The position numbers were made by a program, and so were the translations under genes. A stretch of DNA of 41,150 bases from the NCBI RefSeq assembly GCF_002735695.1, contig NZ_PDZH01000031.1, positions 1 through 41,150 on the forward strand, read 5' to 3'. The notes beneath the pieces were generated by a model. The model had not been told where the DNA came from. It did no database searches and saw nothing but the letters and a program-made list of their open reading frames with translations. Each line of letters starts with the position of its first letter. Positions within the stretch are counted from its first letter, which is position 1. The stretch comes from Chitinimonas sp. BJB300 (GTDB taxonomy: Bacteria > Pseudomonadota > Gammaproteobacteria > Burkholderiales > Chitinimonadaceae). Of this stretch, positions 16,930-41,150 are shown in pieces.

Positions 16930-18140
16930 TGTTTCTCCCCTCGTTTTTCGCTGAAATTCTTTACGCCGCGCGCGATGATGGTGTCCAGCCGCGCCATGGA
17001 ATGGGGCCACGCATGGTGACTAAGCATGCGCTCGCGTCCAGCCTCGGCCAGCCGCTGCCTTTCCGCCGGATCATCCACGACACGCAGAATCGCCTGCGCC
17101 AGCTGTTCGGGTGTATCGGCCACCAGTAAATGGGATTCGGCATCGGCATCGACGCCACCGGCAGCGATCGTGCTGGTCACCACGGGCACACCCATGGCCA
17201 TGGCCTCCAGAATCTTGTTTTGAGTGCCGCGCGCAATATTGAGTGGGGCCACCATCAGCGCGGACTTGCGTATATAGGGCCGCACATCGGGCACCGAGCC
17301 CGTTACCGTTACACCGGGCAGCTCGCCCAGCTTGCGCATCGCGGGCGTTGGGTCTGCCCCCACGATCAGCAGTTTCATCGTGGGCTTTTTGGTACGCAGC
17401 AAAGGCCAAACCTGCTCGCAGAAGCGGCTCATACACTCCTGATTGGGGTAATAGTCCATGCGGCCGATAAAGCTGATGGTTTCGACATCGTAGGGTTCGT
17501 CAACCGGGCAGAAAAAAACCGCGTCGACACCATTGGGAAACCAGTCTGTCGCCGCGCCTGTGCCATAGTCGTTCAGGGTTTCCCACTCTGCCCGCGTTGT
17601 AGCAGTACAAAGGTCGAAACGCTTGGCGAGCCGCTTTTCCGCCGCCAGCATCTTGCTGCCTTCCAAGCGGTAACCGAGCGAAATCGGAAACGGCTTGTAA
17701 TTGGCGTACTCGAACCACTTTTGCGAATCCATATCGCCAAAATCGAGAATCTTGGGGATGTCCTGCACATGCTCGACATACTGCGCAACCGAGGAGCAAT
17801 GCACGAAAATCAAATCCCACTGTTTCTCGGCCAGCAACTTGCGCACCTTGCCCGCCAGCTCGGGCGAGTAAAAAAACCCCATCGATGAGGGTGTGGTGAT
17901 AGGCAGGCGGGCCACCATACGCAGTGCCTGGACGGGGTTCCACACCTGGCCGACTTCAAACTGGTCGCAATGCGGAGCAATGCCCTGCCCTTCCACGGCT
18001 TCTTCGGGGCTACGTGCCAGCGAACACACGGTGACCTTATGCCCCTGGCTGCTCAGGTGCCGAATCATGTTGAATGGCCGGATCTTGCCGCCACGCTTGG
18101 GCGGAAAGGGGAAACGATGGCAGACGTAAAGGATATTCAT
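16926..18140 (-). CDS. Glycosyltransferase, PEP-CTERM/EpsH1-associated (stp1-like)
   Basis: This is a 404-aa GT-B enzyme. The N-terminus ILYVCHRFPFPPKRGGKIRP is the hallmark I associate with the XrtA-linked sugar transferase family TIGR03087. Further signatures are FGDMDSQKW, WFPNGVDAVFF, FIGRMDYYPN and the donor-site region RGTQNKILEAMAMGVPVV. It transfers a sugar during repeat-unit assembly. It overlaps the amidotransferase gene and the dehydrogenase gene by 4 bp each. Confidence 0.92.
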   Translation of the reverse strand: MNILYVCHRFPFPPKRGGKIRPFNMIRHLSSQGHKVTVCSLARSPEEAVEGQGIAPHCDQFEVGQVWNPVQALRMVARLPITTPSSMGFFYSPELAGKVRKLLAEKQWDLIFVHCSSVAQYVEHVQDIPKILDFGDMDSQKWFEYANYKPFPISLGYRLEGSKMLAAEKRLAKRFDLCTATTRAEWETLNDYGTGAATDWFPNGVDAVFFCPVDEPYDVETISFIGRMDYYPNQECMSRFCEQVWPLLRTKKPTMKLLIVGADPTPAMRKLGELPGVTVTGSVPDVRPYIRKSALMVAPLNIARGTQNKILEAMAMGVPVVTSTIAAGGVDADAESHLLVADTPEQLAQAILRVVDDPAERQRLAEAGRERMLSHHAWPHSMARLDTIIARGVKNFSEKRGEKQ

Positions 18141-20068: not shown

Positions 20069-21286
20069 TCAGAGGCTAAGGGGTTGTGCAACACCACGGC
20101 CTGCCAATGCACGGCCGTAGACTTCCTGATAACGGGCCACAGAACTGCGCCACGTACGTTCCTGCTCGACAAACTGTCGTGCTTGCGCCTTGATCTGCGG
20201 CCAGCGTTCACGCTGGGCCAACACTGACTCCAACGCATCCTCTAACGAAGCCACATCACCGGCCTTGAACAGAAACCCGGTCTCGCCATGGCGAATCAGC
20301 TCGCGGTGCCCACCCACGTCCGAGGCCACGAACATACGCCCCTGCGCCATGGCCTCTAGCGGCTTAAGTGGTGTAACCAGCTCGGTCAACCGAATCGGCA
20401 GGCGCGGGTAGGCCAATACGTCGATCATTTCGTAATACCGCTGCACATCAGCATGCGGCACGCGACCAGTGAAAATAACTTGCTGCTGCATACCGGCGGC
20501 CTCTACCTGACTGCGCAGCGCGGCCTCCTGCGGGCCGCCACCCACCAACAGCACTCGCAGGTCTGGATGGCGCGGCAGCATACGTTGCGCTGCGGCCAGC
20601 AATAAACTCAACCCCTCATAGCCATAGAATGAGCCGGCGAACCCAAGCACCGTCGCCCCATCGAGACCTAACTGGCTACGCAATGCCGCGTCCGGCTCCG
20701 CACCAAAGCGAAAGACCGCCACATCCACGGCATTGGGAATCACCGTAATGCGCGATTCAGGTATGCCGCGGATAGCGATATCGCCCCGTAACCCCTCGCA
20801 AATGGTGGTGACCTCATCGGCCCAGCGCAGCGCAAAGCTTTCCAGCGCGCGCGAGGCCCGATAACGCAAGCTACCTTCCTGAGTAGTGCCATGGTCCACC
20901 GCGGCGTCCTCCCACGAGGCGCGCATTTCGTAGACCACCGGCAACTTCAGTTTGCGGCCCACCCACAAGCTGGGCAGCGCATTGAGCACCGGCGAATGCG
21001 CGTGGATCAGGTCGGGCTTGGTAGCGCGCACTACTTCAGCCAGGCGCTTGGCGGTCAGCCGCATCTGCGCTAAAAGGCCCGTGCCCTCGGCGCTGGGTGT
21101 GCGGTAAAACACCAGTCCATCGACCTCTTCGCTCGCAGCCGAACCGGGCCCTTGCTTGGGGGTGGTCAAGTGCACCGTCTCCCAGCCCAATTCGCGTTGT
21201 TCACGCAGAATGGACAAGGTACGGAAGGTATATCCGCTATGCAGGGGTGCCGAATGATCGAGCACGTGCAACACACGCAGACTCAT
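20069..21286 (-). CDS. Glycosyltransferase, PEP-CTERM/exosortase A-associated (Daro_2409-like)
   Basis: This is a 405-aa GT4 enzyme starting at ATG21286 (ATGA overlap with the amidotransferase stop; the frame is open to 21379). The start LRVLHVLDHSAPLHSGYTFR matches the exosortase A-associated family I know as TIGR04063. The donor domain has VIPNAVDVAVF, GFAGSFYGYEGL, and a P-L-K-P-L-E-A-M-A-Q-G stretch typical of this group. It builds the repeat unit on the cytoplasmic side. Confidence 0.92.
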   Translation of the reverse strand: MSLRVLHVLDHSAPLHSGYTFRTLSILREQRELGWETVHLTTPKQGPGSAASEEVDGLVFYRTPSAEGTGLLAQMRLTAKRLAEVVRATKPDLIHAHSPVLNALPSLWVGRKLKLPVVYEMRASWEDAAVDHGTTQEGSLRYRASRALESFALRWADEVTTICEGLRGDIAIRGIPESRITVIPNAVDVAVFRFGAEPDAALRSQLGLDGATVLGFAGSFYGYEGLSLLLAAAQRMLPRHPDLRVLLVGGGPQEAALRSQVEAAGMQQQVIFTGRVPHADVQRYYEMIDVLAYPRLPIRLTELVTPLKPLEAMAQGRMFVASDVGGHRELIRHGETGFLFKAGDVASLEDALESVLAQRERWPQIKAQARQFVEQERTWRSSVARYQEVYGRALAGRGVAQPLSL

Positions 21287-23223
21287 GACAATGCCACCGC
21301 CTCGGATTGTTGCTGCGGTGCGGCCACGCTCACATCCAACACATTGCGCAAGAAAGCCTCGAACATCAGCAATGTCCATAACGGGGCACTGTAGTCGCGC
21401 ACGCCCGACTGATGCGCGTCAACCAGATGGCGCAGGTAGTCGGCATTGAACCAACCAGTGGCGGCCAGGCGCGGGCCTAGTACCGCCTCTCGCACCCGCT
21501 GCTTCAACGGCCCGCGGAACCACCGCGCCAGGGGCACGGCAAAACCCATCTTGGGCCGATACAGCACATCGTCAGGTAGATAGGGCTCCATGCCCTTCTT
21601 GAGCAGGAATTTGCCTTCTTGCCCGCGGATTTTCAGCGAGGACGGCAAGGTGGCCAGCCATTCCACCAGTTCATGGTCCATCAAGGGTTCACGCACTTCC
21701 AGCGAGTGCGCCATGCTGGCACGGTCGACTTTGGTATTGATGTCGCCTACCAGATAGGTTTTCAGGTCAAGGTATTGAATCAGTGCCAATGGGTCGTCAG
21801 TCTCCGCTTTGGCGGCATGCTGCTCGAATACGGTGCGCGCGTTGTAGCCCGCAATTTCCTGTTTGAAACGCGGGCTGAATAGTTGGTCACGCATCGGCCC
21901 GCGCAAAATGGAAACCGAGTGGAAATACGCCTCGACCGAACTGCGCGCCATGCCTTCAAAGGTCGTCTTGGCGCGGAAGATGCGCGGGGCCCAGTCGGCT
22001 TTCGGGTACACCCTCCCCAACAGGCCAAACAAGGGCCGGCGCACCCCCTGCGGCAAGGCGGCGCGCAGACGCTCTTCCATCAAGTGCATGCGATAGCGCC
22101 GATAGCCGCCAAAACTTTCATCACCACCATCACCCGACAACGCCACTGTCACATACTTGCGCGCCAACTCGCACACCCGGTAGGTGGGAATCGCCGAGCT
22201 GTCAGCGTAGGGTTCGTCGTATAAACGTGCCAGCGTGTCGATCAGATCGAAGTCATCGCTCTTGACGGTTTCGACGTGATGGTTGGTCTGATAACGCTTG
22301 GCCACCATGTCCGCAAAGGCTGACTCATTGAAGACCGGGTCGTCAAATGCAATCGAGCAGGTATTGACCGGCTCTTGCGACAGCCCTGCCATCATCGCCA
22401 CCACGGCACTTGAATCCACCCCGCCGGACAAGAACGCCCCCAGTGGCACCTCGGCAATCATGCGTAGCTTCACCGACTCGCGCAGCTTGTCGGTCATCTG
22501 CGCACACGCGTCTTCAGCGGACAATGATTGGTCGGTGCTGAAACGCACGTCCCAATAGGGCTGCTCTTCCGGTATCGGCTGGCCACGGCGCAGGGTGAGG
22601 GTGTGGGCGGGCGATAGCTTGCGCGCCTGCTTGAAAATGGTGCGCGGTTCGGCCACGTAACCGAGGGCAAAGTATTCTTCCACAGCCAAGGGGTCGATAT
22701 CCCGTGCCAAGCCGCCATGCGCCAACAAGGACTTGAGTTCCGAACCAAACAGGAACGTCCCATCGGGCAAGTAAGCGTAATAGAGCGGCTTTACCGCCAA
22801 CCGGTCGCGCGCAAGGAACAGTGTTTCCTGGTTTCTATCCCATAGCGCAAAGGCAAACATGCCGCGAAAACGTTTGACGCAATCCGTCCCCCAGGCAGCC
22901 CAGGCATGCACAATCACTTCCGTGTCGCTGCGGGTACGAAACAGGAAACCCAATGCCTGCAACTCGGCAATCAACGGATGGTAGTTGTAGATCTCGCCAT
23001 TGAACACCACGCAGATGCTGCCATCGGCGTTGTACAGGGGCTGCTGGCCGGTAGAAAGGTCGATGATGGACAGTCGCCGATGCCCCAAGCCAACACCCGG
23101 CTCAATATGCACCCCACCCTCGTCCGGCCCACGGTGATGCTGCGATTCGTTCATGCGGTGCAGCACGGCACGGTCAATATCGCGCTGGCTGCGGGTATCA
23201 AAAATACCGGTTATGCCACACAT
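21283..23223 (-). CDS. Exosortase A system-associated amidotransferase 1 (asparagine synthase family)
   Basis: This is a 646-aa protein. Cys2 nucleophile in MCGITGIFDTR, QHHRGPDEGG and GLGHRRLSIIDLS form the glutaminase domain. LSGGVDSSAVV and SGDGGDESFGGYRRY form the ATP/synthetase domain. The N-terminal wording matches the XrtA-associated amidotransferase family (TIGR03108). It is a core member of these loci, although its acceptor has not, to my knowledge, been proven. It is separated from the stp2-like glycosyltransferase gene by 14 bp. Confidence 0.93.
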   Translation of the reverse strand: MCGITGIFDTRSQRDIDRAVLHRMNESQHHRGPDEGGVHIEPGVGLGHRRLSIIDLSTGQQPLYNADGSICVVFNGEIYNYHPLIAELQALGFLFRTRSDTEVIVHAWAAWGTDCVKRFRGMFAFALWDRNQETLFLARDRLAVKPLYYAYLPDGTFLFGSELKSLLAHGGLARDIDPLAVEEYFALGYVAEPRTIFKQARKLSPAHTLTLRRGQPIPEEQPYWDVRFSTDQSLSAEDACAQMTDKLRESVKLRMIAEVPLGAFLSGGVDSSAVVAMMAGLSQEPVNTCSIAFDDPVFNESAFADMVAKRYQTNHHVETVKSDDFDLIDTLARLYDEPYADSSAIPTYRVCELARKYVTVALSGDGGDESFGGYRRYRMHLMEERLRAALPQGVRRPLFGLLGRVYPKADWAPRIFRAKTTFEGMARSSVEAYFHSVSILRGPMRDQLFSPRFKQEIAGYNARTVFEQHAAKAETDDPLALIQYLDLKTYLVGDINTKVDRASMAHSLEVREPLMDHELVEWLATLPSSLKIRGQEGKFLLKKGMEPYLPDDVLYRPKMGFAVPLARWFRGPLKQRVREAVLGPRLAATGWFNADYLRHLVDAHQSGVRDYSAPLWTLLMFEAFLRNVLDVSVAAPQQQSEAVALS

Positions 23224-23237
23224 GGTCTTGTCCGCTT

Positions 23238-24443
23238 CTAATCGTTAATGGGGGGTTGGGGGCTGTGCACCGGCAAGGCGCTGGCTGCGCCGGAGGCCGT
23301 GCGCTGAAGGTGGTCGTAGAGCTGCTGGTAATGCGCCACCATGGCGTCCAGACTGAAACGGCGCTCAATCAGCTGGCGGCCATGCAGGCCTGCTGCTTGC
23401 CCCTCGGAGGGCGAACGGGCGTAATGCATGATTGCGTTGGCAAGCGCTTGTGGATTGGCGGCAGGCACCAGATAGCCGCTTTCGCCAGGTTCCAAGAGTT
23501 CGGCATTGCCGCCCACCTCGGTAGCTATCACCGGTAAGCCACAAGCCATGGCTTCCAATATCGTGTTGGACACCCCTTCGGCGAGCGAAGGCAGCACAAA
23601 GCAATCCAAGCCCTGCAGGATATCGGCCACATCGCTGCGCGCACCCGGTAGCCAAGCCAGTTCGGCCAGGCCCGCTGCCGTCAGCATAGCGATTACCTGC
23701 TCGCGCAAAGGTCCGTCCCCCACCAGTAGCAATCGTAGCCGAGACTTCAGCGCGGGTGCCTGTTGCACTGCGCGGATAAACGCCTGAGCCAGATTGGTTT
23801 GGTCTTTCACGGTCTGCATACGGCCGACCGTGCCGATCAGGTACTGCGTCGGGTCGTTGAACGGGCAGCCTGCAATCGCGTGGCGACTTGCCACCGGCCT
23901 GAACTTGCCGGCATCCACGCCGTTATAGATTTGCGTCACCCGCGCCGTCGGCACCCCGACCCGTTGAGTGAGGTAGTCTGCCAAATCGCGCGACAAGGCG
24001 ATGTAATGGGTGACAAATGGCCGGTACAACCGCCGTAACCATTGGTATTTACGGCTGCTACCATCAAGGTCGTCCACATCGCGCCCGTGCTCGCCATGGA
24101 TTCTCACCTTCACGCCAGCCAGCCACGCGGGTACCTGCGCTTCCAGCGCTGCGAGGTTACGGCTGTGTACGATAGCAGGCCGCAAGCGGCGAAAAAGGCG
24201 ATACAACTGCGGGTAGATGCGCAAGGCATGCCCAGGCGGCTTGACCAAGGCAATGCATTCCACATCGTCGCGGGTAAGCCGCTGCCGGAAGTCGGTGACT
24301 TCAGTCAGGGCGATGACCACATGGCGATAGCTATCGGCAGGCATCCGGTTGATGAGATTCACCACGCCGTTTTCCAACCCGCCCACATCAAAGCGGTAAA
24401 CCACATGCGCGACCAGCGGGCGCAGATCGACTGGCGCATTCAT
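23238..24443 (-). CDS. Glycosyltransferase, PEP-CTERM/EpsH1-associated (stp2-like)
   Basis: This is a 401-aa GT4 enzyme. The N-terminal pattern VAHVVYRFDVGGLENGVVNL is the signature of the XrtA-linked transferase family TIGR03088. It continues with HSRNLAALEAQ, HGEHGRDVDD, IYNGVDAGKF, and the donor region PSLAEGVSNTILEAMACGLP. Its start overlaps the exosortase stop by 4 bp, linking glycan assembly and protein sorting in one transcript. Confidence 0.93.
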   Translation of the reverse strand: MNAPVDLRPLVAHVVYRFDVGGLENGVVNLINRMPADSYRHVVIALTEVTDFRQRLTRDDVECIALVKPPGHALRIYPQLYRLFRRLRPAIVHSRNLAALEAQVPAWLAGVKVRIHGEHGRDVDDLDGSSRKYQWLRRLYRPFVTHYIALSRDLADYLTQRVGVPTARVTQIYNGVDAGKFRPVASRHAIAGCPFNDPTQYLIGTVGRMQTVKDQTNLAQAFIRAVQQAPALKSRLRLLLVGDGPLREQVIAMLTAAGLAELAWLPGARSDVADILQGLDCFVLPSLAEGVSNTILEAMACGLPVIATEVGGNAELLEPGESGYLVPAANPQALANAIMHYARSPSEGQAAGLHGRQLIERRFSLDAMVAHYQQLYDHLQRTASGAASALPVHSPQPPIND

Positions 24444-26008
24444 GGCATACCCCGCACCTGCTGCAAACGCGACGCCAATGCCGGCATGGATGCCGCTAGG
24501 AACGACTGCATGGCTGGCGGAGCGGGATAGTCTTTGTCCTCACGGCCATAAAGCATAACGACCGCGGTGTCATCGCCCTGGCCAGCAAGTTGCGCCAGGG
24601 CAGTGTAGGCCCGGGCCCAACGTGGGCTGTCTGTCCAACGGCCATTCACCCAATACCACTGCCACACCAACAGTCGGTCACCATACCGGTTACGCAACTC
24701 AGCTTGCTGCACAGACAGAACCTGATCAGGCAAGTCAACGCTATGCGCACGATGGTTAAGCTGCTTCCAGTTCAGCTCGTCCAGCCTTACCAACACATTG
24801 CGTGAACTGATGGCCTTGTGGTTGTCATCCTGCTGGCGGTAATAGGCCACATACAGCCCGACCATCTGCTTGCCATGTTCATACACCACGGTGCGCTGCA
24901 CCGATGGCGTTTCCATGCTCGGCTGCCACCCGGTAAACAGCTGCCCCGACGCCTGCCAGGGGCCGGTGCCATCCAGCACAGCCAAGTCACCTAGTGGGGG
25001 TGGTTGCTTATGTTCAATCGACCACTGCCAAACAGGCCATACAGTGATGAGCCCCAACAACACCACCGCTACCGGCCATAACGGCGGCCGCCCACGATGG
25101 CTTGAGGCTGCAGGGTTGGGCGGCGTCAACCCGGCTGGCGCAGTGTGCTCCTGCCAACGTGCGCCAATCGAGAACATCGCCAGAATCACCACCCCAAAAA
25201 AGACCCAGCCATAAATCAAATGATCCACACCGACTGCCAGCGTGTTACCCGACAGGTGACCGATCATCACGATCGAATACGCGCGTACCCAGTTGGCGGC
25301 GATTGGCACCAGGCTGGCGACCAGAATAAAAATCAATCGCCGCTTGAGCGAGTAGTAGTTCAGGTAGGCGAAGAGCGTGCCCACCATCAGCGATGCAATC
25401 AGATAACGCACACCGCTACAGGCCTCCACCACCGACCAATTACCCGACGGAATGACAAACTCCAGGCCCTCGCGGTACACCGGCACGCCGCTGAAACGGA
25501 TGCCCAGCACCGCGACATCCGCAGTCCAGGTCATCAAGGTGGGGATGACGAATTCTCCAAAGGGCACCGCAAACAAAAGGAAAAACAACGGAAAAGTAAT
25601 TTGCCGCGCAATCTGCCAGCCCAATAGCGCCGGCACGGTCAAAATCAAACTGAAAACCAGCCCGAACTGCGCCAGAACATTTGTCGAGGCGAGCGCCCCC
25701 AGCAGCCAGACAAAACCCGCCCCCGCCAGAAGTGGCAACGCCAGCCAGCCCGGCCTGGGCGTCAAGGGGCGAAGCTGATCCCGGCTGCGCCAGATCAACC
25801 ACAAGCTGATAGGCAACACCAGGAAACCATGGGTAAAGGTTTCAGAACGCGTCCAAATTCCCACCATGCCGACCAAGGTATCGCGATAGCAGAACAGGAG
25901 CCAAAGCTGGGCGAGCAACAGCATTGACAAGGCATGCTGCCAGCCAGACGCCGTCAAAGGGCGACGCGCTTGAACCGACAATGCAGCTGGAGGATTCACC
26001 TCATTCAT
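24440..26008 (-). CDS. xrtA: Exosortase A fused to C-terminal EpsI domain
   Basis: This 522-aa protein starts from ATG26008; the frame is open to 26041, but the earlier start adds residues unlike the family. About eight transmembrane segments form the exosortase part, with the catalytic triad Cys197 (VEACSGVR), Arg242 (NWVRAYS) and His263 (VDHLIYGW). After about residue 310 a soluble, probably periplasmic EpsI-type domain follows (VVYEHGKQMVGLYVAYYRQQ, then LVWQWYWVNG). Exosortases recognise PEP-CTERM tails and cut them for export to the surface. It sits between the FemAB-like and stp2-like genes, the usual place in XrtA loci. The likely client here is the PEP-CTERM protein at 37898-38743. 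Confidence 0.94.
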   Translation of the reverse strand: MNEVNPPAALSVQARRPLTASGWQHALSMLLLAQLWLLFCYRDTLVGMVGIWTRSETFTHGFLVLPISLWLIWRSRDQLRPLTPRPGWLALPLLAGAGFVWLLGALASTNVLAQFGLVFSLILTVPALLGWQIARQITFPLFFLLFAVPFGEFVIPTLMTWTADVAVLGIRFSGVPVYREGLEFVIPSGNWSVVEACSGVRYLIASLMVGTLFAYLNYYSLKRRLIFILVASLVPIAANWVRAYSIVMIGHLSGNTLAVGVDHLIYGWVFFGVVILAMFSIGARWQEHTAPAGLTPPNPAASSHRGRPPLWPVAVVLLGLITVWPVWQWSIEHKQPPPLGDLAVLDGTGPWQASGQLFTGWQPSMETPSVQRTVVYEHGKQMVGLYVAYYRQQDDNHKAISSRNVLVRLDELNWKQLNHRAHSVDLPDQVLSVQQAELRNRYGDRLLVWQWYWVNGRWTDSPRWARAYTALAQLAGQGDDTAVVMLYGREDKDYPAPPAMQSFLAASMPALASRLQQVRGMP

Positions 26009-26053
26009 CGCAACGCCCCACCACCCCAAATCACTGCACATCCCCTACAGCAC

Positions 26054-34489: not shown

Positions 34490-35119
34490 TCAAAACCAGC
34501 TACGCGGAATAATCAGCACATCGCCCGGTTTCATTTCGACATCAGCAGAAACATCCCCATTTTTCATTAAATCCTTCAGTCGCACACGATACTGCTTGGA
34601 ACCTTCTGCGGTACGCATGAGTGTCGCGCCATTACCATCAGCAAAGTCAGTAATGCCATTCACGGCGATCATGACATCGAGCAGGGTCATTTTTTGCTTG
34701 TACGGTAAGGTTTGTGGTCTTGCAGCTTCGCCGATAACGCGAATCTGTTCACTGTAAGGGCCAACAAAGCTAGTCACAACCACCGTCACGACTGGATCGC
34801 GAATGAATTTACCCAATGCCTTTTCAATGTCACGCGCTAGCAACGAAGAATCCTTACCCAGCGCTGGTAAATCTTCGACCAACGGTGCTGAAATTTTTCC
34901 ATCCGGACGCACTGGAACCGACATCGACAACTCAGGATTTCGCCACACAACGATATTTACCGTGTCGCCAGGTCCAATTAAATAATTATATTCAGATGAA
35001 GCAGCTTTAACGGGTGCCGGCGGATAATGTGAAGCGCACCCCACTAGAAACACAGCGAGAAAACTAGTTACAACCCAACGAAAGCCAATGCCGAAGACTC
35101 GATACTGGTCGATATTCAT
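34490..35119 (-). CDS. Polysaccharide export lipoprotein (Wza-like), first gene of the EPS operon
   Basis: This is a 209-aa protein. A lipoprotein signal ends at LVGC (Cys28). The mature part has the polysaccharide export domain, GPGDTVNIVVWRNPELS..VPVRPDGKISAPLV, followed by a SLBB-like domain (IRVIGEAARPQTLPY, then ILIIPRSW). It is shorter than E. coli Wza, as is normal for XrtA-type exporters (TIGR03027). GGAGGAAACTT precedes ATG35119, a strong ribosome binding site fitting the first gene of the operon. Confidence 0.95.
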   Translation of the reverse strand: MNIDQYRVFGIGFRWVVTSFLAVFLVGCASHYPPAPVKAASSEYNYLIGPGDTVNIVVWRNPELSMSVPVRPDGKISAPLVEDLPALGKDSSLLARDIEKALGKFIRDPVVTVVVTSFVGPYSEQIRVIGEAARPQTLPYKQKMTLLDVMIAVNGITDFADGNGATLMRTAEGSKQYRVRLKDLMKNGDVSADVEMKPGDVLIIPRSWF

Positions 35120-35343
35120 AAGTTTCCTCCAATATACTCAGATGTGTGTTCTTAGTAGAGTAATTCAAACATCGTAGCGCAGGGTGACATTCTAAGACAT
35201 ATGACCGCGCGTGGAAATTTGCTTACTAACTCGCGCAGCAAGTCGCCCTTGCACGACATTTAAGAAAACTTATAACAAAGCATTTTAAATCACACACTTA
35301 ACGTAAATATTTACAGCGGTGATCTTATTGAATCAGTTTTTCA

Positions 35344-35373
35344 GTCGCCAATTTACGACAATTAAATGTCGTA
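35344..35373. promoter_or_regulatory. Candidate enhancer (activator-binding) site
   Basis: Two overlapping palindromic arrangements are present: GTCGCCAATTTACGACA, and TACGACA with TGTCGTA around 6 nt. They end about 64-77 bp upstream of the -24 element at 35437, a usual place for enhancer-binding protein sites. A related sequence (GTCG, spacer, TTTACGGCA) lies upstream of the other sigma-54-type promoter at 38911-38929. Binding by a PrsR-like activator is inferred only. Confidence 0.35.
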
Positions 35374-35436
35374 CTTAATTAAATTATTTATGTCTAATTA
35401 TTTGCAATTCCAGCAATGACAAAAGAATGTCGCCTT

Positions 35437-35452
35437 TGGCATGCCCCATGCT
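35437..35452 (+). promoter_or_regulatory. Sigma-54 -24/-12 promoter upstream of FeeM-type gene
   Basis: TGGCATG-CCCC-ATGCT matches the consensus TGGCACG-N4-TTGCW with two mismatches and keeps the invariant GG-N10-GC spacing (GG 35438-35439, GC 35450-35451). Transcription should start near 35462, leaving a leader of about 105 nt before the TTG at 35569. Confidence 0.68.
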
Positions 35453-35568
35453 TATTGAATTACCGACCATCGAGTCATTTGTTCGGATTGCCTTGTTCCT
35501 GCGTAGAGGTGCCACCAAGCACAGCAGTCCGTCCTTAATCGGGGTAGTGCTACAGGGACTTTTCAATC

Positions 35569-36402
35569 TTGGATTCAACTCTCAATCTTTGCCCAGAACA
35601 TTACAATGCAGGGCAACAGCACGCAGCACATTTTCAACTAGGGCGGCTGGTTCGGGACACTCCCTCAAAAAGAGCGCCCACTACGCTACCGTGGTTACCG
35701 CCCTCGGCTGACCACACTTTTACGGATGAAATTGCACTAGATATCCCACCTGCCGCCTTTGATGAGCGCCCCTATCGATTCTTCTGCGCTCACGAAACTG
35801 CCAGTAAAGCCCGTGCAGCAGAACTCGTCTCGCAACGCTATCAATGGCGCGGATATGGTGAAGAATGTGGGCAGGCATTGCTGGAGTCTTCGCAGCCCGC
35901 TCAGATGACATTCATCGCAACGCAACGTGGCCAGGTTGTTGGCACTGTGTCGACCCGGCTTGATGGCGGCTCCCCCTTGAACTGTGACGCGCTGTATCCC
36001 GATATCACTGCAGCCAAGCGCGCACAGGGGCATCGGCTTGCCGAATTCGGCCAACTGGCGATTAACACTACCAACAAACCGCTTGAAGCCATGGGGCCGC
36101 TTTTTCATTTGACGGTCATGTTCGCGCACAAGAAAAATGCCGCCACGCATGCATTAATTGAGGTTAATCCGCGACACGTCGCTTTTTACCGACGCGCCTT
36201 TGGCTTTACGGTTATTGGCGAGCAGCGACACTGTCTGCGTGTCGATGCACCCGCCATACTCATGCAGTTGGACCTGAAAATAGTACAAGACCAAATAACC
36301 GAACAAGGCGGAAGCCGCTATGGTCGAATTTCGGTCTTTCCTTACTGTTTCTCGTTGGCTGAAAGTAAAGTAATCGAACGTACTTTACTGCGTCCTATTT
36401 GA
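35569..36402 (+). CDS. N-acyl amino acid synthase-like GNAT (FeeM domain)
   Basis: This is a 277-aa protein. The first 60 residues have no recognised motif. From about 65 a FeeM-like acyltransferase domain follows: RFFCAHETASKARAAELVSQ, TFIATQRGQVVGTVSTRLD, LAEFGQLAI, then IEVNPRHVAFYRRAFGF and RVDAPAILMQLDL. FeeM-type enzymes join a long-chain acyl group from acyl carrier protein to an amino acid, and such genes have been reported near PEP-CTERM/exosortase genes. The TTG start at 35569 is the only plausible one in a frame open from 35548; AGGGA lies upstream. A sigma-54-type promoter stands about 120 bp upstream. The acyl acceptor here is unknown. Confidence 0.82.
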   Translation: MDSTLNLCPEHYNAGQQHAAHFQLGRLVRDTPSKRAPTTLPWLPPSADHTFTDEIALDIPPAAFDERPYRFFCAHETASKARAAELVSQRYQWRGYGEECGQALLESSQPAQMTFIATQRGQVVGTVSTRLDGGSPLNCDALYPDITAAKRAQGHRLAEFGQLAINTTNKPLEAMGPLFHLTVMFAHKKNAATHALIEVNPRHVAFYRRAFGFTVIGEQRHCLRVDAPAILMQLDLKIVQDQITEQGGSRYGRISVFPYCFSLAESKVIERTLLRPI

Positions 36403-36561
36403 CCTTTCCCCTTCCTATACCGTTGTCACGCTGAAAAAAGAAAGCATCACCAATCGTGAGGTATGAATTATTGAATGTCTCCCAGGGATTGCTTGGCGGT
36501 GGAATCGACCACCAAGGACGCCTATACTTCTTTACGTCCGAGCGAGACTGGAGTAGGTAAA
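36403..36561. other. 159-bp spacer before the nitroreductase-like gene
   Basis: No clear promoter, terminator or small gene was recognised. The nitroreductase frame is open from 36475, so part of this stretch could be coding if the upstream ATG is used. Co-transcription with the FeeM-type gene is possible. Confidence 0.4.
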
Positions 36562-37674
36562 ATGCAACATGAAACGCTGATGCAAATTCTAGACCTTGCT
36601 CGTTGGGCACCCAGCGGGGATAACCATCAACCCTATCGTCTTGAAATCATCTCTCCCATACATGTAGCAATACATGGGTTTGATACGCGCAAGCACACCG
36701 ATATCAGCGGTAAAGACTCGGCTAGCCAAGTACCTGTAATTTATGACTATGATGGCCATTCGAGTCATATCGCACATGGCGCTTTATTGGAAACAATGCG
36801 TATTGCGGCTAGCCGCTTTAATGTCGCAATGGCATGGCAGATTCGGGATAATTGTGCAGAAGACGCGCCCATTTATGATGTGTTCTTCGATGATGCCAAT
36901 ATCAAACCGAGTCCCTTGGCTAATTTCATTGAGTCACGCTGCGTCCAACGAAAATTAATGGCCCGTAAGCCCTTAAGCGAAGAGCAGAAAAAATCCTTGA
37001 TTGAATCAGTGGGGGACCAATATACCCTTCAATTCTTTGAATCCAGCCAGGATAAACGAAATATCGCCAAGCTGCTTTGGGACAACGCCGAAGTTTGTCT
37101 GACCTGCGAAACAACTTATAAGATCCATTACGCAGCAGTTGAGTGGGGTACCCAATTCAGTAAGACACGTATTCCACAGGATGCTATAGCCATGGACCCA
37201 CTCTCGGCAGTGCTGATGACATGGGTAATGAAAAGCTGGAAGCGGGTCAGTTTCTTCAATCGATATATGTTTGGCACACTTGTACCGAAGCTGGAATTAT
37301 ATTTCCTGCCGGCAATATTCTGTTCCAGCCATATTTTGATTAAACCCAAAAATCCTCTGGTCGATTTACAGGACTATGTGGAAGCGGGTATCGCAATGCA
37401 ACGGTTATGGTTAACTGTCAGTTCGCTTGGCCTGTACCTTCAACCGGAAATGATACCCGTCATTTTCCGTTGGTATACCAATGCCGGTAAATCCATCGTT
37501 CAGGATCCTCCTACATTGAATGCCGAGGCAGCCAAGGGTACAACGGAATTTGAGAAACTGGCTGGGGTAAATGCAAGCCAACCCTTCAGTTTCTTTTGCC
37601 GGGTTGGATATTCTGCCCCACCGACTTCACGATCAATTCGTAGGGATTTGAAAGACCTGATGTACACGCCTTGA
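36562..37674 (+). CDS. Nitroreductase-fold protein associated with the E1-like/acyltransferase set
   Basis: This is a 370-aa protein from ATG36562 (GGAG upstream); ATG36475 would add 29 residues unlike the family. The N-terminal LDLARWAPSGDNHQPYRLEI is the FMN-binding pattern of nitroreductases, HGALLETMRIAA follows, and a late GIAMQRLWLTVSSLGL fits the C-terminal part of the fold. It is longer than simple nitroreductases (about 200 aa). Similar domains occur joined to ThiF domains in mycobacterial Rv1355c-like proteins, and a separate ThiF-like gene lies 1.3 kb away here. A redox step on an acylated or adenylated product is possible; the reaction is unknown. Confidence 0.75.
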   Translation: MQHETLMQILDLARWAPSGDNHQPYRLEIISPIHVAIHGFDTRKHTDISGKDSASQVPVIYDYDGHSSHIAHGALLETMRIAASRFNVAMAWQIRDNCAEDAPIYDVFFDDANIKPSPLANFIESRCVQRKLMARKPLSEEQKKSLIESVGDQYTLQFFESSQDKRNIAKLLWDNAEVCLTCETTYKIHYAAVEWGTQFSKTRIPQDAIAMDPLSAVLMTWVMKSWKRVSFFNRYMFGTLVPKLELYFLPAIFCSSHILIKPKNPLVDLQDYVEAGIAMQRLWLTVSSLGLYLQPEMIPVIFRWYTNAGKSIVQDPPTLNAEAAKGTTEFEKLAGVNASQPFSFFCRVGYSAPPTSRSIRRDLKDLMYTP

Positions 37675-37694
37675 AATGCATTGTGTTAATCCTT

Positions 37695-37836
37695 AGAACC
37701 TGTCTAAAGACTGCTACGCGTCGGCAATATGGCGTTGAAAACGCCCTCGGAATGCTCATTTACCGCCTGAAAACTCTGTTTCCTCGGCTGTTTTCGCCTT
37801 ATCCTGCGCTAGCTCGCGAGACTTTAGACAGGTTCT
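37695..37836. repeat. 142-bp MITE-like element with 15-bp perfect terminal inverted repeats
   Basis: AGAACCTGTCTAAAG at 37695-37709 is the exact reverse complement of CTTTAGACAGGTTCT at 37822-37836. The inside has no gene of its own; short frames reading through it are artefacts. A half-copy lies at 3598-3662, so it is a dispersed family. No clear target-site duplication is seen at the ends. The right end touches a 60-bp palindrome. It is probably a non-autonomous transposable element mobilised by an unseen transposase. Confidence 0.82.
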
Positions 37837-37894
37837 CAGTAGTGTCAAATGAAAAAGGAGGGAATTCCCTCCTTTTTCATTTGACACTACTGAG
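37835..37894. terminator. 60-bp perfect palindrome, probable bidirectional terminator of the PEP-CTERM gene
   Basis: Two 30-nt arms are exactly complementary with no loop, centred between 37864 and 37865. The core, AAAAAGGAGGG followed by its complement CCCTCCTTTTT, has the G/C stem and T-run of an intrinsic terminator in both directions. It starts 3 bp after the stop of the PEP-CTERM gene and also faces the nitroreductase gene. Arms of this length without mismatch are unusual for a simple terminator. Confidence 0.75.
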
Positions 37895-37897
37895 CAC

Positions 37898-38743
37898 TTA
37901 AACAGCACGGCTAATCCGACGACGGCTAATTGCACCCATCCCAAGTAAACCAAGGGCGATCAAAGCAACCGAACCGGGTTCAGGAATCTTCAAGAGATCC
38001 CCACTACCATCGCTGGTTACTTTACCAGTTGCACAGAACGCAGCCTGGTTGAAAGAACAAACACCGGAAAAGGTAAAGGGATTGGAAATCTTGTTGGTGG
38101 TCTGAACCTGCAAGAACAAGTCAGATGCCGAGTCATAACCTAATCCGGCACCATCCAGATCAAGCTGGAAGCCATTCATAAACGAATCAAACTGCAGTAA
38201 CAGTGTCGATTGGCCGAGAGTTTGATTCCGGCCGTTGAAGTCAGCCAAATCACCGCCAGATGGGCTGCGCATGGATAAATTCGCCATGTCTACCCAAGTA
38301 GCCGCACCATCGGTAGTTGCTTGCAACTTGATGCTGCCAATGCCAGGGGTAAAGGCATAATTGATGCCGCCAGTGAGCGCATTGTAAGCAGTCACCACTC
38401 CTGATAACCCGGTAAACACAAAACGAAGCCCATCAAGCGGTTGGGCATAGCTTTGAGGAAACCCGAAATCACCAAAACCTGGGACGTTTTCAGTTACATA
38501 ATTGAGCGAAAAGATATTACCGAATTCTTGGAATTGAGCGCCTACGAAGGGGGTGCCACCAGGTCCAATTTGTTGCGTTACCGTTGCAACACCACCGTTA
38601 AGGCCAACGTGGCCTATATTGCTGGTGGTCGTGCCACCGGCAGTCATGGTCCAGGCATCTTCAACTACCATGGCATGCGCGGCCGAACCCATGGCTGCAA
38701 CACCAGCTAGAGCGAGCGCCGTGATAAGCTTTTTGAGTTGCAT
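37898..38743 (-). CDS. PEP-CTERM sorting-domain protein (exosortase substrate)
   Basis: This is a 281-aa secreted protein. ATG38743 has AAAGGAG 7 nt upstream; an ORF open to 38851 overshoots the promoter. The N-terminal signal peptide is MQLKKLITALALAGVAAMG ending at AHA. The C-terminus is the tripartite PEP-CTERM signal: IPEP (Pro-Glu-Pro at 254-256), a hydrophobic helix and a basic tail RRRISRAV. Between them is a Gly/Thr/Asn-rich beta-type domain with a possible disulphide pair (VCSFNQAAFC). Exosortase A should cleave at PEP and pass it to the surface, likely into the polysaccharide matrix. A sigma-54-type promoter lies upstream. Confidence 0.94.
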   Translation of the reverse strand: MQLKKLITALALAGVAAMGSAAHAMVVEDAWTMTAGGTTTSNIGHVGLNGGVATVTQQIGPGGTPFVGAQFQEFGNIFSLNYVTENVPGFGDFGFPQSYAQPLDGLRFVFTGLSGVVTAYNALTGGINYAFTPGIGSIKLQATTDGAATWVDMANLSMRSPSGGDLADFNGRNQTLGQSTLLLQFDSFMNGFQLDLDGAGLGYDSASDLFLQVQTTNKISNPFTFSGVCSFNQAAFCATGKVTSDGSGDLLKIPEPGSVALIALGLLGMGAISRRRISRAV

Positions 38744-38836
38744 CGCTAATCTCCTTTGAACTTGCAATGTGTTCTGTCGGTATGCCGCACTTGGCGTTGC
38801 CCCGAGCCCTAAAAATCTGTTGCAGGCTATATAAAG

Positions 38837-38851
38837 CAACGCGCATGCCAC
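38837..38851 (-). promoter_or_regulatory. Sigma-54 -24/-12 promoter of the PEP-CTERM gene
   Basis: On the minus strand TGGCATGCGCGTTGC matches TGGCACG-N4-TTGC with a single mismatch and exact GG-N10-GC spacing, followed by T. Transcription should begin near 38826, giving a leader of about 83 nt before ATG38743. PEP-CTERM genes in XrtA bacteria are known to be switched on by the PrsK/PrsR pair with sigma-54. Confidence 0.8.
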
Positions 38852-38909
38852 AAATTCAACCCACTGTTTTTAAACACATTTTGTTCGAATTCAACACTAG
38901 CAACCCGCT

Positions 38910-38931
38910 CTGCCGTAAAGTATTCCGACAG
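38910..38931. promoter_or_regulatory. Candidate enhancer site upstream of the PEP-CTERM promoter
   Basis: On the minus strand CTGTCG, a 10-nt spacer and CGGCAG form a near-perfect inverted repeat ending about 59 bp upstream of the -24 element. It shares GTCG and TTTACGRCA with the candidate site at 35344-35360. It lies just beyond the ThiF-like stop codon at 38948. Confidence 0.35.
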
Positions 38932-38947
38932 CCGCCAAGCGACCTTT

Positions 38948-39832
38948 CTATTTGGTAGCTGACTGCGACAGCATCGCCATACCCAGCTTGAATCCCAAGC
39001 GTTGCAAGGGGTTCCGGTAGCCCATTGGACGCCAGCTCCATGCTGCATGATGGGTGTAAGCATCCACGTGGTAACTCCACGGCGCAGCTCTGATCTCGCC
39101 ACGGCCCAATATCAATTTCACCGTCTCGGTCGCCGCCACCCCAGCGCATAACATGCAACCCGCAACGGTCGATGGTCCGCGCTTTTCCTGCAGATTGATC
39201 CGGTCCGGTTCCACCAGATAACTATTGTGTAGACGCTTGGGGGTAAGGCCCAGCAAGAAGCGCAACGCTTTCTCGGTATCGTTGCAGCCCTCAAAGCCGA
39301 AGTACTCTTCAAAGCTCATTTGCCCTGGCAAAAATACCAACACTGATGTCCCCATACCCAGCGGTGCCGCCGTCACTGCGGGAATCCCCAAACGATGGCA
39401 AGCTGCAAAGGCCAACTGGCGCGCCTTGAATGCAAAAAAATCCAGCCCATCGACATACACCGTGGCACCCTTCAAAAACTCATCGATGTTGGATTCATCC
39501 ACCCCTTTGGGATAGACCTGGAGGTCGGCGCTGGGGTTGATATCTTTGACCATGGCCCCGATAACCTCTGCCTTGGGGCGCCCCAAGGTACTGACCATTG
39601 CCCCAGCCTGACGATTAAAGTTTGGGACATCAAAATTATCAAAGTCAGCTATAGAGAAAGCACCGATACCAAAGCGGGCAAGTGTCGTGACATGAAAACC
39701 GCCTACGCCACCTAAACCCGCGACTGCAACCTTTGCTTTGCGCAATTTCTGCTGTTCTGCTTCGGTTACCCACCCCAAATTGCGGGAAAACGCGTTGTCG
39801 TAAGGGAATGCGCCCTCGGTTATTGAACTCAT
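38948..39832 (-). CDS. ThiF/E1-like adenylyltransferase family protein
   Basis: This is a 294-aa protein. The nucleotide-binding Rossmann motif GLGGVGGFHV, then IADFDNFDVPNFNRQ, are standard for the ThiF/MoeB/HesA/E1 family. Late in the chain is GCMLCAGVAATE, with only one CxxC instead of the two zinc pairs of ThiF. Such enzymes adenylate a carboxyl end of a protein, peptide or small molecule. AGGAG precedes ATG39832. It is divergent from the exosortase-associated acyltransferase (66-bp gap) and lies in the same module as a nitroreductase-fold protein; E1-like and nitroreductase domains are fused in Rv1355c-like proteins. Its substrate is not known. Confidence 0.85.
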   Translation of the reverse strand: MSSITEGAFPYDNAFSRNLGWVTEAEQQKLRKAKVAVAGLGGVGGFHVTTLARFGIGAFSIADFDNFDVPNFNRQAGAMVSTLGRPKAEVIGAMVKDINPSADLQVYPKGVDESNIDEFLKGATVYVDGLDFFAFKARQLAFAACHRLGIPAVTAAPLGMGTSVLVFLPGQMSFEEYFGFEGCNDTEKALRFLLGLTPKRLHNSYLVEPDRINLQEKRGPSTVAGCMLCAGVAATETVKLILGRGEIRAAPWSYHVDAYTHHAAWSWRPMGYRNPLQRLGFKLGMAMLSQSATK

Positions 39833-39858
39833 GCCTTTTTCTCCTGGTTATCCGGCAA

Positions 39859-39872
39859 GGGGCAGCTGCCCC
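39859..39872. promoter_or_regulatory. 14-bp perfect palindrome in the divergent ThiF/acyltransferase promoter region
   Basis: GGGGCAGCTGCCCC lies in the 66-bp gap between the two divergent genes. Its position suits an operator for a dimeric regulator shared by both genes. No -24/-12 element was found here. Function is inferred from position only. Confidence 0.3.
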
Positions 39873-39898
39873 GTCTAACTCGTTACTAACTAGATGCG

Positions 39899-40678
39899 GT
39901 GGTTTCTATGAGTGGCTCTCCCTCTGTAGACAATCTTGGCGCTAGCTTCAATAGCTACTTTGAAATCGTACCCGCCCTGGACGACACAACACGCAAAGAA
40001 GTGTTCCGTGTTCGTCATTCTGTGTACTGCAGCGACTTGCATTTTGAAGCGGAGCGCAGCGATGGAGAAGAGTGCGATGAGCATGATGCACACTCCGTCT
40101 TATGCTTGCTACGCACCCGGGGCAGCCAGCCAAAACCAGTGGGTTGCTGTCGCATGATCCTGACCGACCCCAAGCACCCTGCAGCGGAATTGCCCTTCGA
40201 GCATCACTGTGCCGCCGTGCTGGACCGCAGTTTGATGGACCCTGCCAGCCTGGACCGGCACCGAATCGCTGAGGTTTCGAGGCTGGCCGTCGTCTCAGAC
40301 TTCCGACGACGGAAAGAAGAACAAGATCGACCCGTTTCCATCAGCGATCAGGACTTCGACCAGGTCGGCGGCGCATCACGCTTCCCATTTATACCTGTCG
40401 GCCTCTACCTTGCCTGCGTGGCAATTTCGCTACGCATTGGTATAGACCACTTGTTCGTCCTGACGGAACCCCGGCTGGCAAAGCATTTTTCCAAGATCGG
40501 ATTTGATATACGCCAAATCGGTGGTGAAATAGAACATCGTGGTACTCGCGTACCCTCACACCTTAGTCCCATTCTCATTCAGCAAAACCTCAAACCCATG
40601 CTCCGCCCTCTGTATGAGGTCGTCAAAGTGTCAGTCGACCGCGGATTTGAAGCGCACGCACGCAATACATCCAAGTAA
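39899..40678 (+). CDS. PEP-CTERM/exosortase system-associated acyltransferase
   Basis: This protein is 256-259 aa long. ATG39908 or GTG39899 can start it; neither has a strong Shine-Dalgarno. The pattern YFEIVPALDDTTRKEVFRVR at the start, CRMILTDP, and EVSRLAVVSDFRRR match the exosortase-associated acyltransferase family TIGR03694, relatives of autoinducer synthases and long-chain N-acyl amino acid synthases. It likely transfers an acyl chain to an amino acid or similar amine. It is divergent from the ThiF-like gene. Ten bases after its stop the inserted group II intron begins, so its natural downstream sequence is displaced. Confidence 0.9.
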   Translation: MVSMSGSPSVDNLGASFNSYFEIVPALDDTTRKEVFRVRHSVYCSDLHFEAERSDGEECDEHDAHSVLCLLRTRGSQPKPVGCCRMILTDPKHPAAELPFEHHCAAVLDRSLMDPASLDRHRIAEVSRLAVVSDFRRRKEEQDRPVSISDQDFDQVGGASRFPFIPVGLYLACVAISLRIGIDHLFVLTEPRLAKHFSKIGFDIRQIGGEIEHRGTRVPSHLSPILIQQNLKPMLRPLYEVVKVSVDRGFEAHARNTSK

Positions 40679-40771: not shown

Positions 40772-41150
40772 TTAGGCGAGTCTTGGTACACCAAGGCGGT
40801 CGAAGTAGGCAATCGGCAACACCCGGTTCAGAACACCGCAGCCGTTACGCCACCAGCGTCTAGAATTGCCGGCGATCCGCTTCGCGTCTGCTTCGCTCGC
40901 ACCCAGCTTCTTCAGTTCCCGATACATCGTCGTGCCCCGCCTCCAGTGTTTCAGATGCAGGGTGCGCAATCGGTGACGCAGCCATTTGTCCAGCTCTCGA
41001 AACACCGTCGGCGTCTGCGCCACTTGGAAATAACCCTTCCAGCCAGGCATATACGCTTTCAGTTTGTCGATTACCTGCTCCAGGCTGCGGCCACCACTAC
41101 GTCGCGTCATTTCCCGAACGCGCTGTTTGTATTTCTCCAGCGCTTTCTTG
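40772..41150 (-). CDS. Group II intron reverse transcriptase/maturase, C-terminal fragment (runs off right edge)
   Basis: The frame is open from the right edge to the TAA at 40772-40774; an internal Met at 41110 is not the true start. The visible about 126 residues include MPGWKGYFQVAQTPTVF, LDKWLRHRLRTLHLKHW and YFDRLGVPRLA, the maturase X/thumb region (GIIM domain) of bacterial intron proteins. No HNH endonuclease domain follows, so retrohoming would not use target cleavage by that domain. The YADD polymerase motif would be outside the window. Confidence 0.9.
   Translation of the reverse strand, partial: KKALEKYKQRVREMTRRSGGRSLEQVIDKLKAYMPGWKGYFQVAQTPTVFRELDKWLRHRLRTLHLKHWRRGTTMYRELKKLGASEADAKRIAGNSRRWWRNGCGVLNRVLPIAYFDRLGVPRLA

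Follow-up and report, generated by a model that had tools for sequence, protein, structure and literature searches.

A probable acyl-oxazolone gene set tied to the exosortase/PEP-CTERM sorting system in Chitinimonas

TrzS (= Rv1355c) combines a ThiF cyclase and a flavin oxidase in one chain and turns N-acyl tryptophan into tryptazolone by cyclisation and desaturation (PMC12856293), and TyzA, TyzB and TyzC carry out like chemistry for tyrosine as separate proteins (PMC10404671); statements on cited papers here and below refer to the available parts of their text. The role of such acyl-oxazolones is called a major unresolved question (PMC12856293). In drawings of the exosortase system the attachment partner is an unknown periplasmic nucleophile (PMC1569441), and a link between N-acyl amino acid synthases and PEP-CTERM proteins (Craig et al.) is cited in PMC7293339 and PMC4897644. 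Here we describe five genes, coding for a FeeM-type N-acyl amino acid synthase, a nitroreductase-fold protein, a PEP-CTERM protein, an E1-like (ThiF) enzyme and a TIGR03694 acyltransferase, in a 41,150-nucleotide stretch of Chitinimonas sp. BJB300 (contig NZ_PDZH01000031.1, positions 1 to 41,150; hereafter the window). The FeeM-type, ThiF and nitroreductase-fold enzymes probably form an acyl-oxazolone pathway, a reading based on matches to the two halves of Rv1355c (TrzS), the Acg-like fold of the nitroreductase-fold protein, a ThiF enzyme without invariant cysteine, and the match of the FeeM-type protein to the FeeM structure. The chemistry and the general link between N-acyl amino acid synthases and PEP-CTERM proteins were already known; what appears to be new here is the strength of the tie to the exosortase. 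A search that covered subscription journals only thinly found no literature linking oxazolone-type ThiF/nitroreductase genes to exosortase or PrsR, and the available parts of PMC12078418, PMC11511702, PMC4897644, PMC1569441 and PMC9850573 contain no such link.

The four enzymes had been proposed from the letters alone to lie around the PEP-CTERM gene at 35.4-40.7 kb (hereafter the sequence-only reading), and profile matches above chance were obtained for all five genes, which stand beside an XrtA locus (Table 1). Position 35437, taken in that reading as the start of the set, does not begin a gene; a sigma-54-type -24/-12 sequence starts there. The open reading frame of the nitroreductase-fold protein opens at 36475; homology to its counterpart in Chitinimonas taiwanensis DSM 18899 (L132) runs from about 36562, and a GGAG lies upstream of the start at 36562. 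XrtA and a PEP-CTERM protein thus occur together in this genome, which places it among those with an XrtA/PEP-CTERM system.

Table 1. Coordinates of the gene set, the XrtA locus genes named in the text and the candidate regulatory sequences in the window
Feature	Position	Strand	Match or remark
FeeM-type N-acyl amino acid synthase / GNAT	35569-36402	+	TTG start; PF21926 148.8 bits, cut-off 27
Predicted nitroreductase-fold flavin-dependent oxidase/desaturase	36562-37674	+	NF005901 (Rv1355c family) positions 366-716, 76.6 bits
PEP-CTERM surface protein	37898-38743	-	PF07589 24.0 bits, cut-off 20.7
E1-like (ThiF) carboxylate-adenylating enzyme, predicted oxazolone cyclase	38948-39832	-	NF006077/PRK08223 426.9 bits, cut-off 266
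TIGR03694 exosortase-associated acyltransferase	39899-40678	+	241.7 bits, cut-off 111.95; GTG 39899 or ATG 39908
Exosortase A (XrtA)	24440-26041	-	TIGR03109 348.9 bits, cut-off 208
XrtA-system exopolysaccharide export protein, adjoins FeeM	34490-35119	-	TIGR03027 228.6 bits, cut-off 180
TTTACG + sigma-54 sequence before FeeM	35352-35452 (sigma-54 part 35437-35452)	+	Spacer 79; 116 nucleotides to start
TTTACG + sigma-54 sequence before PEP-CTERM gene	38835-38919 (sigma-54 part 38835-38850)	-	Spacer 63; 91 nucleotides to start
Palindrome GTCGCNNNNNNNCGAC, possible activator site	35242-35257		Between export gene and FeeM
Second palindrome GTCGCNNNNNNNCGAC	35344-35359		Overlaps the element's TTTACG; 102 bp from first

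Each of the ThiF and nitroreductase-fold proteins corresponds to one half of NF005901, the model of the Rv1355c family, the former over positions 91-223 (67.7 bits) and the latter over the part given in Table 1; the sequence-only reading had noted that this pairing is seen fused in Rv1355c-like proteins. Both also match NF011424 (PRK14851), ThiF over 23-302 (277.1 bits) and the nitroreductase over 318-622 (71.4 bits). On NF011425 (PRK14852), FeeM aligns over 40-212 (54.5 bits), ThiF over 312-583 and the nitroreductase weakly (E 0.016); the window genes are separate, and the best piece reaches 241 bits against a cut-off of 1337, so that they do not qualify as a one-chain PRK14852 protein. In an alignment of 21 ThiF sequences, the window's included, GxGGxG, R66, Q67, K79, D120 and D123 are invariant, with roles that we take to be those of their equivalents in MoeB/ThiF, and no cysteine is invariant. 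Kept nucleotide-site residues without an invariant cysteine fit a cyclase rather than a thioester-forming E1: they are more in keeping with an enzyme that adenylates its substrate and then closes a ring than with one that transfers a thioester. For the nitroreductase-fold protein, an AlphaFold model (predicted local distance difference test score, pLDDT, 86.2; predicted template modelling score, pTM, 0.89) found Acg as its best Foldseek match (PDB 2YMV, E 2.5e-13, TM-score 0.64 by query length), Acg was also best in a profile search (8.3e-17), and the motif PSxDNxQ is invariant in its alignment. The authors of the TrzS study likewise found Acg to be the closest structure (PMC12856293). The model, the profile match and the motif place the protein in the nitroreductase superfamily as a predicted flavin-dependent oxidase rather than reductase.

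The FeeM-type protein matches the crystal structure of FeeM (PDB 2G0B, E 9.9e-12) and, together with its PF21926 match, this places it among N-acyl amino acid synthases of the FeeM/LuxI fold. On the FeeM model the TIGR03694 protein, too, scores above the cut-off (28.3 bits against 27), and it is probably a second or alternative synthase.

Conservation was counted in three collections: 232 genomes of the same class as the window, with counts and p values uncorrected for descent, 41 relatives, and 80 named loci (L132-L211) that are the best 80 of at least 471 ThiF matches and are taxonomically clustered. In the 232 genomes, ThiF-positive means scoring above the PRK08223 (NF006077) cut-off of 266, which holds for 24, and 9 of the 41 relatives are ThiF-positive; G148, with a ThiF match of 144 bits, was dropped and scored as ThiF-negative. 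PEP-CTERM genes in the loci were detected among open frames by means of a simple pattern that overlooks some of them, as in G055, where a PepA-like match near ThiF was found by the PepA profile search instead. G232 and L132 are one genome (77/77 sampled 50-mers of L222 are present in L132) and count as a single piece of evidence.

An exosortase occurs in 23 of the 24 ThiF-positive genomes against 50 of the 208 others (p 3e-12), and in 8/9 ThiF-positive against 7/32 other genomes among the relatives. Among the named loci, 62 carry a PEP-CTERM-type frame, within 3 kb of the ThiF/nitroreductase core in 61. The density of such frames falls 15-fold with distance: the 438 kb lying no more than 3 kb from the core hold 67 of them, the 791 kb farther out 8. 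In the sampled stretches, PEP-CTERM frames are found in 16 of 24 around ThiF (the window included) against 1 of 17 around FeeM or TIGR03694 genes remote from ThiF; ten of these 17 come from exosortase-positive genomes, and none of the ten has a PEP-CTERM frame. One of the 17 (L128) does contain a distant ThiF-nitroreductase frame. The nitroreductase is present in 69 of the named loci, and it shares one open frame with ThiF in 6 of these 80 and in 8 of the 24 sampled loci.

The tie does not run through one dedicated PEP-CTERM protein family, a possibility that was ruled out. When the C-terminal end is removed, 77 PEP-CTERM proteins near ThiF form 23 groups, of which 12 have a single member. The window's protein is PepA-like, matching nearly the whole of NF033554 at 48.1 bits, below the family cut-off of 80. 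Of 62 PEP-CTERM proteins scanned, one from the window and the nearest one in each of 61 loci, the PepA model picks up 48 at E 1e-5, EDSAP-1 47 and THxN 43; these matches overlap because the C-terminal signal is common to all. Only five matches in the 232 genomes pass the PepA cut-off, and four of them lie within 1.3 kb of ThiF, which is suggestive, few as they are. What these neighbours of ThiF have in common is the sorting signal alone, so the gene set is tied to sorting as a system and not to any single protein.

Among the matches listed, the named gene most similar to the window's ThiF is that of C. taiwanensis (91% in the best segment). Its genes run TIGR03694, ThiF, PEP-CTERM, nitroreductase, FeeM and export gene, which is the order and relative orientation of the window; with the nearness of PEP-CTERM genes in the named loci, this gives the conserved neighbourhood on whose absence the sequence-only reading would have been abandoned. 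Protein identity between the two is 88% for ThiF, 76% for the PEP-CTERM protein, 74% for TIGR03694, 58% for the nitroreductase and 56% for FeeM. Nonsynonymous divergence (dN) is 0.09-0.38 and synonymous divergence (dS) at least 2.4 or saturated, so all five genes are under purifying selection. Among seven genomes of the genus, the window's own included, ThiF is found only in that genome and in C. taiwanensis (G232), both with exosortase and TIGR03694; four of the seven lack all three. G233, of the same genus, has an exosortase and lacks ThiF and TIGR03694, and offers a natural contrast.

TIGR03694 scores above its cut-off in 32 of the 232 genomes, 20 of which are shared with ThiF (Fisher p 5e-17). 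In 19 of the 24 ThiF genomes the two genes share a contig and are within 11 kb of each other, and in G218 they are 22 kb apart; G130, G210 and G229 have a FeeM-type gene near ThiF, and G058 has neither FeeM-type gene nor TIGR03694. The 73 exosortase-positive genomes divide into 19 with ThiF and TIGR03694, 4 with ThiF alone, 4 with TIGR03694 alone and 46 with neither. A FeeM- or TIGR03694-like gene is present in 46 of the named loci (30 TIGR03694-like, 20 FeeM-like, 4 both). By the co-occurrence counts in the 232 genomes, TIGR03694 stands in for FeeM at most such loci, and the window is unusual in having both. A single four-step pathway with the two acyltransferases in series was rejected, given that TIGR03694 also matches the FeeM model and that so few loci hold both. 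The sequence-only reading knew of no described pathway using all four enzymes; for three of them the acyl-oxazolone pathway has been described, and the fourth, TIGR03694, looks like a second or alternative synthase rather than an extra step.

Proteobacterial PEP-CTERM genes can be preceded by a two-part element, in which a 17-nucleotide motif 1 ending in TTTACA is followed, after a spacer of 32-92 nucleotides, by a sigma-54 motif lying 23-221 nucleotides before the start codon (Haft et al. 2006, PMC1569441). The FeeM and PEP-CTERM genes of the window both have a sequence of this layout (Table 1), with TTTACG one letter off the published TTTACA, motif 1 being compared at its ending alone. Both sigma-54 parts lie at distances from the start within the published range, and the genome encodes PrsR (TIGR02915, 741.6 bits, cut-off 502.6), as expected of a PrsR/sigma-54 regulon. 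The pattern TTTACG-N60..90-TGGCAY-N6-TGCW matches twice in the window and never in 100 shuffles, a count that overstates the surprise because the pattern was chosen after both sites had been seen. Better evidence is that the window's only two sites precede the FeeM and PEP-CTERM genes, and that C. taiwanensis has the same TTTACG and sigma-54 arrangement before its PEP-CTERM gene (10887-10970 of L132); before its FeeM gene a sigma-54 sequence stands at a like place (14137, minus strand) without TTTACG. Across the named loci the sigma-54 pattern precedes 31 of 75 PEP-CTERM, 3 of 22 FeeM and 1 of 30 TIGR03694 genes, with 0.007 expected per gene, and none of 80 ThiF or 63 nitroreductase genes. Shared control by such sites is well supported in the window and in Chitinimonas and is occasional elsewhere. 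A score with a loose threshold was discarded in favour of exact patterns; by it ThiF genes equalled shuffles and nitroreductase genes equalled their own reverse strand. In Aquincola, pepA depends on RpoN1 (PMC9850573). The palindrome pair GTCGCNNNNNNNCGAC upstream of FeeM has a counterpart of like spacing in C. taiwanensis (14330 and 14229 of L132), and two further matches in the window, at 21394 and 36178, both lie inside genes.

We propose the following route, with its three reactions modelled on characterised relatives. The FeeM-type enzyme would attach a fatty acyl chain to the nitrogen of an amino acid, which is probably aromatic, and TIGR03694 would probably do the same with another substrate choice; neither the amino acid nor the acyl length can be read from the sequence. 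The ThiF enzyme would adenylate the carboxyl group with adenosine triphosphate, whereupon closure on the amide would give a 5-oxazolone (azlactone), and the nitroreductase-fold protein, with flavin mononucleotide and oxygen, would introduce the alpha,beta double bond. The lipid may stay an oxazolone in the cell or open to an N-acyl dehydro-amino acid. One of the courses considered in the sequence-only reading, activation of the carboxyl of an N-acyl amino acid by the E1-like enzyme with oxidation as the next step, matches what has been published for acyl-oxazolones (PMC10404671, PMC12856293). PrsR, presumably as activator, and sigma-54 would turn on FeeM, and the nitroreductase gene too if the two are cotranscribed, together with the PEP-CTERM gene; the lipid would then be made alongside the sorted surface protein and would most likely act in the same matrix, floc or envelope. 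If oxazolone synthesis does belong to the PEP-CTERM regulon, its role becomes testable in environmental hosts that can be cultured, through effects on flocs, matrix or surface proteins, and a likely pathway would be gained for the TIGR03694 family, whose name reflects the company it keeps.

Transport-like genes are frequent neighbours. A LolC/E-like (MacB/FtsX-type) permease gene pair is found near ThiF in 35 of the named loci, within 300 bases in 28; LolD-like genes occur in 18 loci, LolA-like genes in 17 and DUF1302 genes in 16. These families were named from one representative each, and the permease representative (120.9 bits, TIGR02212 cut-off 362) and the ATPase representative (211.7 bits, LolD cut-off 308; DevA scores alike) remain below their cut-offs; the LolA-like representative is above the Pfam cut-off (162 bits against 30). 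Within the stretches L132-L211, the Lol-like genes sit mostly at 7.4-9.9 kb; L132 has none, nor have the scanned window proteins. Such genes suggest that a lipid or lipidated protein is moved to the outer membrane, and possibly that the lipid has a dedicated, testable export route. A glycosyltransferase with a GT28-type C-terminal domain occurs in 35 of the 80 loci.

Several observations weigh against the acyl-oxazolone reading and its tie to the exosortase. On NF005901, the family of TrzS, both window scores are far under the full-length cut-off of 476. The nitroreductase is missing at 9 of the 24 sampled ThiF loci, and a search of those nine whole genomes gave nothing in seven and only weak, distant matches in two; desaturation is therefore not universal. 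By two profiles, 34 of the named loci lack a FeeM or TIGR03694 gene (35 of the 80 are less than 20 kb long), and among the 41 relatives TIGR03694 is present in only 3 of the 9 ThiF-positive genomes, once on another contig. In the window, the ThiF and TIGR03694 genes have no sigma-54 sequence of their own. An exosortase match is absent from ThiF-positive G085 in the 232-genome sample and G253 among the relatives, and likewise from G148 with its weaker ThiF match. Finally, an oxazolone has not been seen in producers of thalassotalic acids, kyonggic acids and stieleriacines, and open-chain dehydro-amino acids are reported from Massilia and Thalassotalea (PMC12479983). This last point leads to an alternative that we take seriously, though we lean away from it, namely that the pathway ends in an open-chain N-acyl dehydro-amino acid like the kyonggic acids, thalassotalic acids or stieleriacines, the oxazolone being a passing intermediate that eases desaturation and is then hydrolysed. 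Several of the 80 loci come from Janthinobacterium, Duganella and Rugamonas, near relatives of Massilia. The producers Massilia kyonggiensis (kyonggic) and Thalassotalea (thalassotalic) carry N-acyl amino acid synthase, ThiF and nitroreductase genes, M. umbonata makes saturated compounds only and has candidate clusters without ThiF and nitroreductase (PMC12479983), and oxazolones hydrolyse easily (PMC12856293). However, acid or alcohol extraction destroys oxazolones, which may explain the failure to see them (PMC12856293), and ThiF loci without a nitroreductase make little sense if cyclisation serves desaturation alone.

The same nitroreductase-less loci bear on a different proposal, in which a reactive azlactone or acyl adenylate made by ThiF is passed at the membrane to the PEP-CTERM protein or to the product of the exosortase, and a sorted protein is thereby lipidated. 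Six of the nine have a PEP-CTERM gene nearby (L092, L093, L095, L103, L112 and L114; not L097, L109 or the short contig L115), and the Lol-like genes would suit a lipoprotein. Nevertheless, the PEP-CTERM proteins beside ThiF have no invariant cysteine or lysine across their many sequence groups, no export signal was noted in ThiF while the substrate is secreted, and ThiF relatives are cytoplasmic. The characterised relatives of the set make free lipids, and the Lol-like genes are wanting in C. taiwanensis and among the scanned window proteins; we regard protein lipidation as unlikely. Equally improbable, in our judgement, is its specific form in which the oxazolone serves as an activated lipid, the azlactone acylating PEP-CTERM proteins or another exosortase partner and the anchor being carried to the outer membrane by Lol-like transporters; were it true, it would supply a missing lipid step of the exosortase system. 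The enzymes might also stand near the exosortase merely because XrtA/exopolysaccharide loci gather accessory genes, and exopolysaccharide export genes are indeed found near ThiF in 27 of the named, taxonomically clustered loci. We doubt strongly that a functional tie is absent, as the density of PEP-CTERM frames drops so steeply beyond 3 kb of the core, 39 of the 62 PEP-CTERM-bearing loci have no XrtA-type export, chain-length or kinase gene in the fetched stretch, and the window's FeeM and PEP-CTERM genes have a sigma-54-type sequence in common. The sequence likeness of the E1-like protein to ThiF, MoeB, TcdA, PaaA and MccB could instead mean that it activates a ubiquitin-like protein, a sulfur carrier or a ribosomal peptide; the nitroreductase would then oxidise azolines, as happens when azole peptides are made. 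We give this very little credence, since the ThiF alignment lacks an invariant cysteine and the family sits with N-acyl amino acid synthases; no YcaO match was found among 27 window proteins scanned with NCBIfam, small precursor open reading frames not having been searched for.

The XrtA locus to the left of the set also encodes, by profile scans, an XrtA-associated FemAB protein, a deacetylase, an amidotransferase, glycosyltransferases and an O-ligase. Two amidotransferase paralogues lie in it (18137-20059 and 21283-23223), one far above and the other below the TIGR03108 cut-off. Beside the O-ligase is an AMP-dependent ligase-like protein (12055-13479), a possible source of activated acyl groups. 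The nitroreductase and PEP-CTERM genes converge, and the space between them (37692-37897) holds a mobile-element-like piece with 21-nucleotide inverted repeats (37692-37712 and 37819-37839), which overlap a nearly perfect palindrome of 66 bp (37832-37897) at its start. The 66-bp gap of the divergent ThiF and TIGR03694 genes contains a perfect palindrome, GGGGCAGCTGCCCC (39859-39872). Directly behind the TIGR03694 gene follows the C-terminal part of a group II intron maturase (40772-41149), inside which the right end of the contig falls.

Among known systems, the NasP/TIGR03694 association resembles the window in having N-acyl amino acid synthase genes beside PEP-CTERM/exosortase genes. Craig and co-workers reportedly read TIGR03694 proteins in 2011 as N-acyl amino acid synthases (NasP) linked to PEP-CTERM, and we know of no E1-like or nitroreductase partner described there. 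The stieleriacine, kyonggic and thalassotalic clusters hold N-acyl amino acid synthase, ThiF and nitroreductase genes together, as the window does (PMC12479983, PMC7293339), and the cluster of Stieleria maiorica includes a PEP-CTERM gene, Mal15_37300, numbered directly beside the nitroreductase gene Mal15_37310 (PMC7293339). The Stieleria clusters differ in having up to four N-acyl amino acid synthases and a methyltransferase, and the available parts of the two papers describe no cross-genome count, exosortase dependence or shared regulatory sequence (PMC12479983, PMC7293339). OxzAB of Pseudoalteromonas rubra (de Rond et al. 2021, via PMC10404671 and PMC12856293) likewise combines an N-acyl amino acid synthase with ThiF and nitroreductase parts, likened here by description and not by sequence; OxzB is fused, unlike the window's proteins. 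The tyrazolone genes TyzACB are closer in arrangement, being three separate genes on both strands, whereas TyzA homologues are predominantly mycobacterial and an exosortase/PEP-CTERM context is not described in the parts of that paper at hand (PMC10404671). TrzAS (Rv1356c/Rv1355c, with homologues in M. smegmatis and Rhodococcus) unites the same three activities predicted for the window, an acyltransferase, a ThiF cyclase and a flavin-dependent oxidase; TrzS is one fused protein, described from mycolic-acid bacteria (PMC12856293), whereas in the window the genes are unfused, occupy both strands, include a second synthase and have a PEP-CTERM gene among them.

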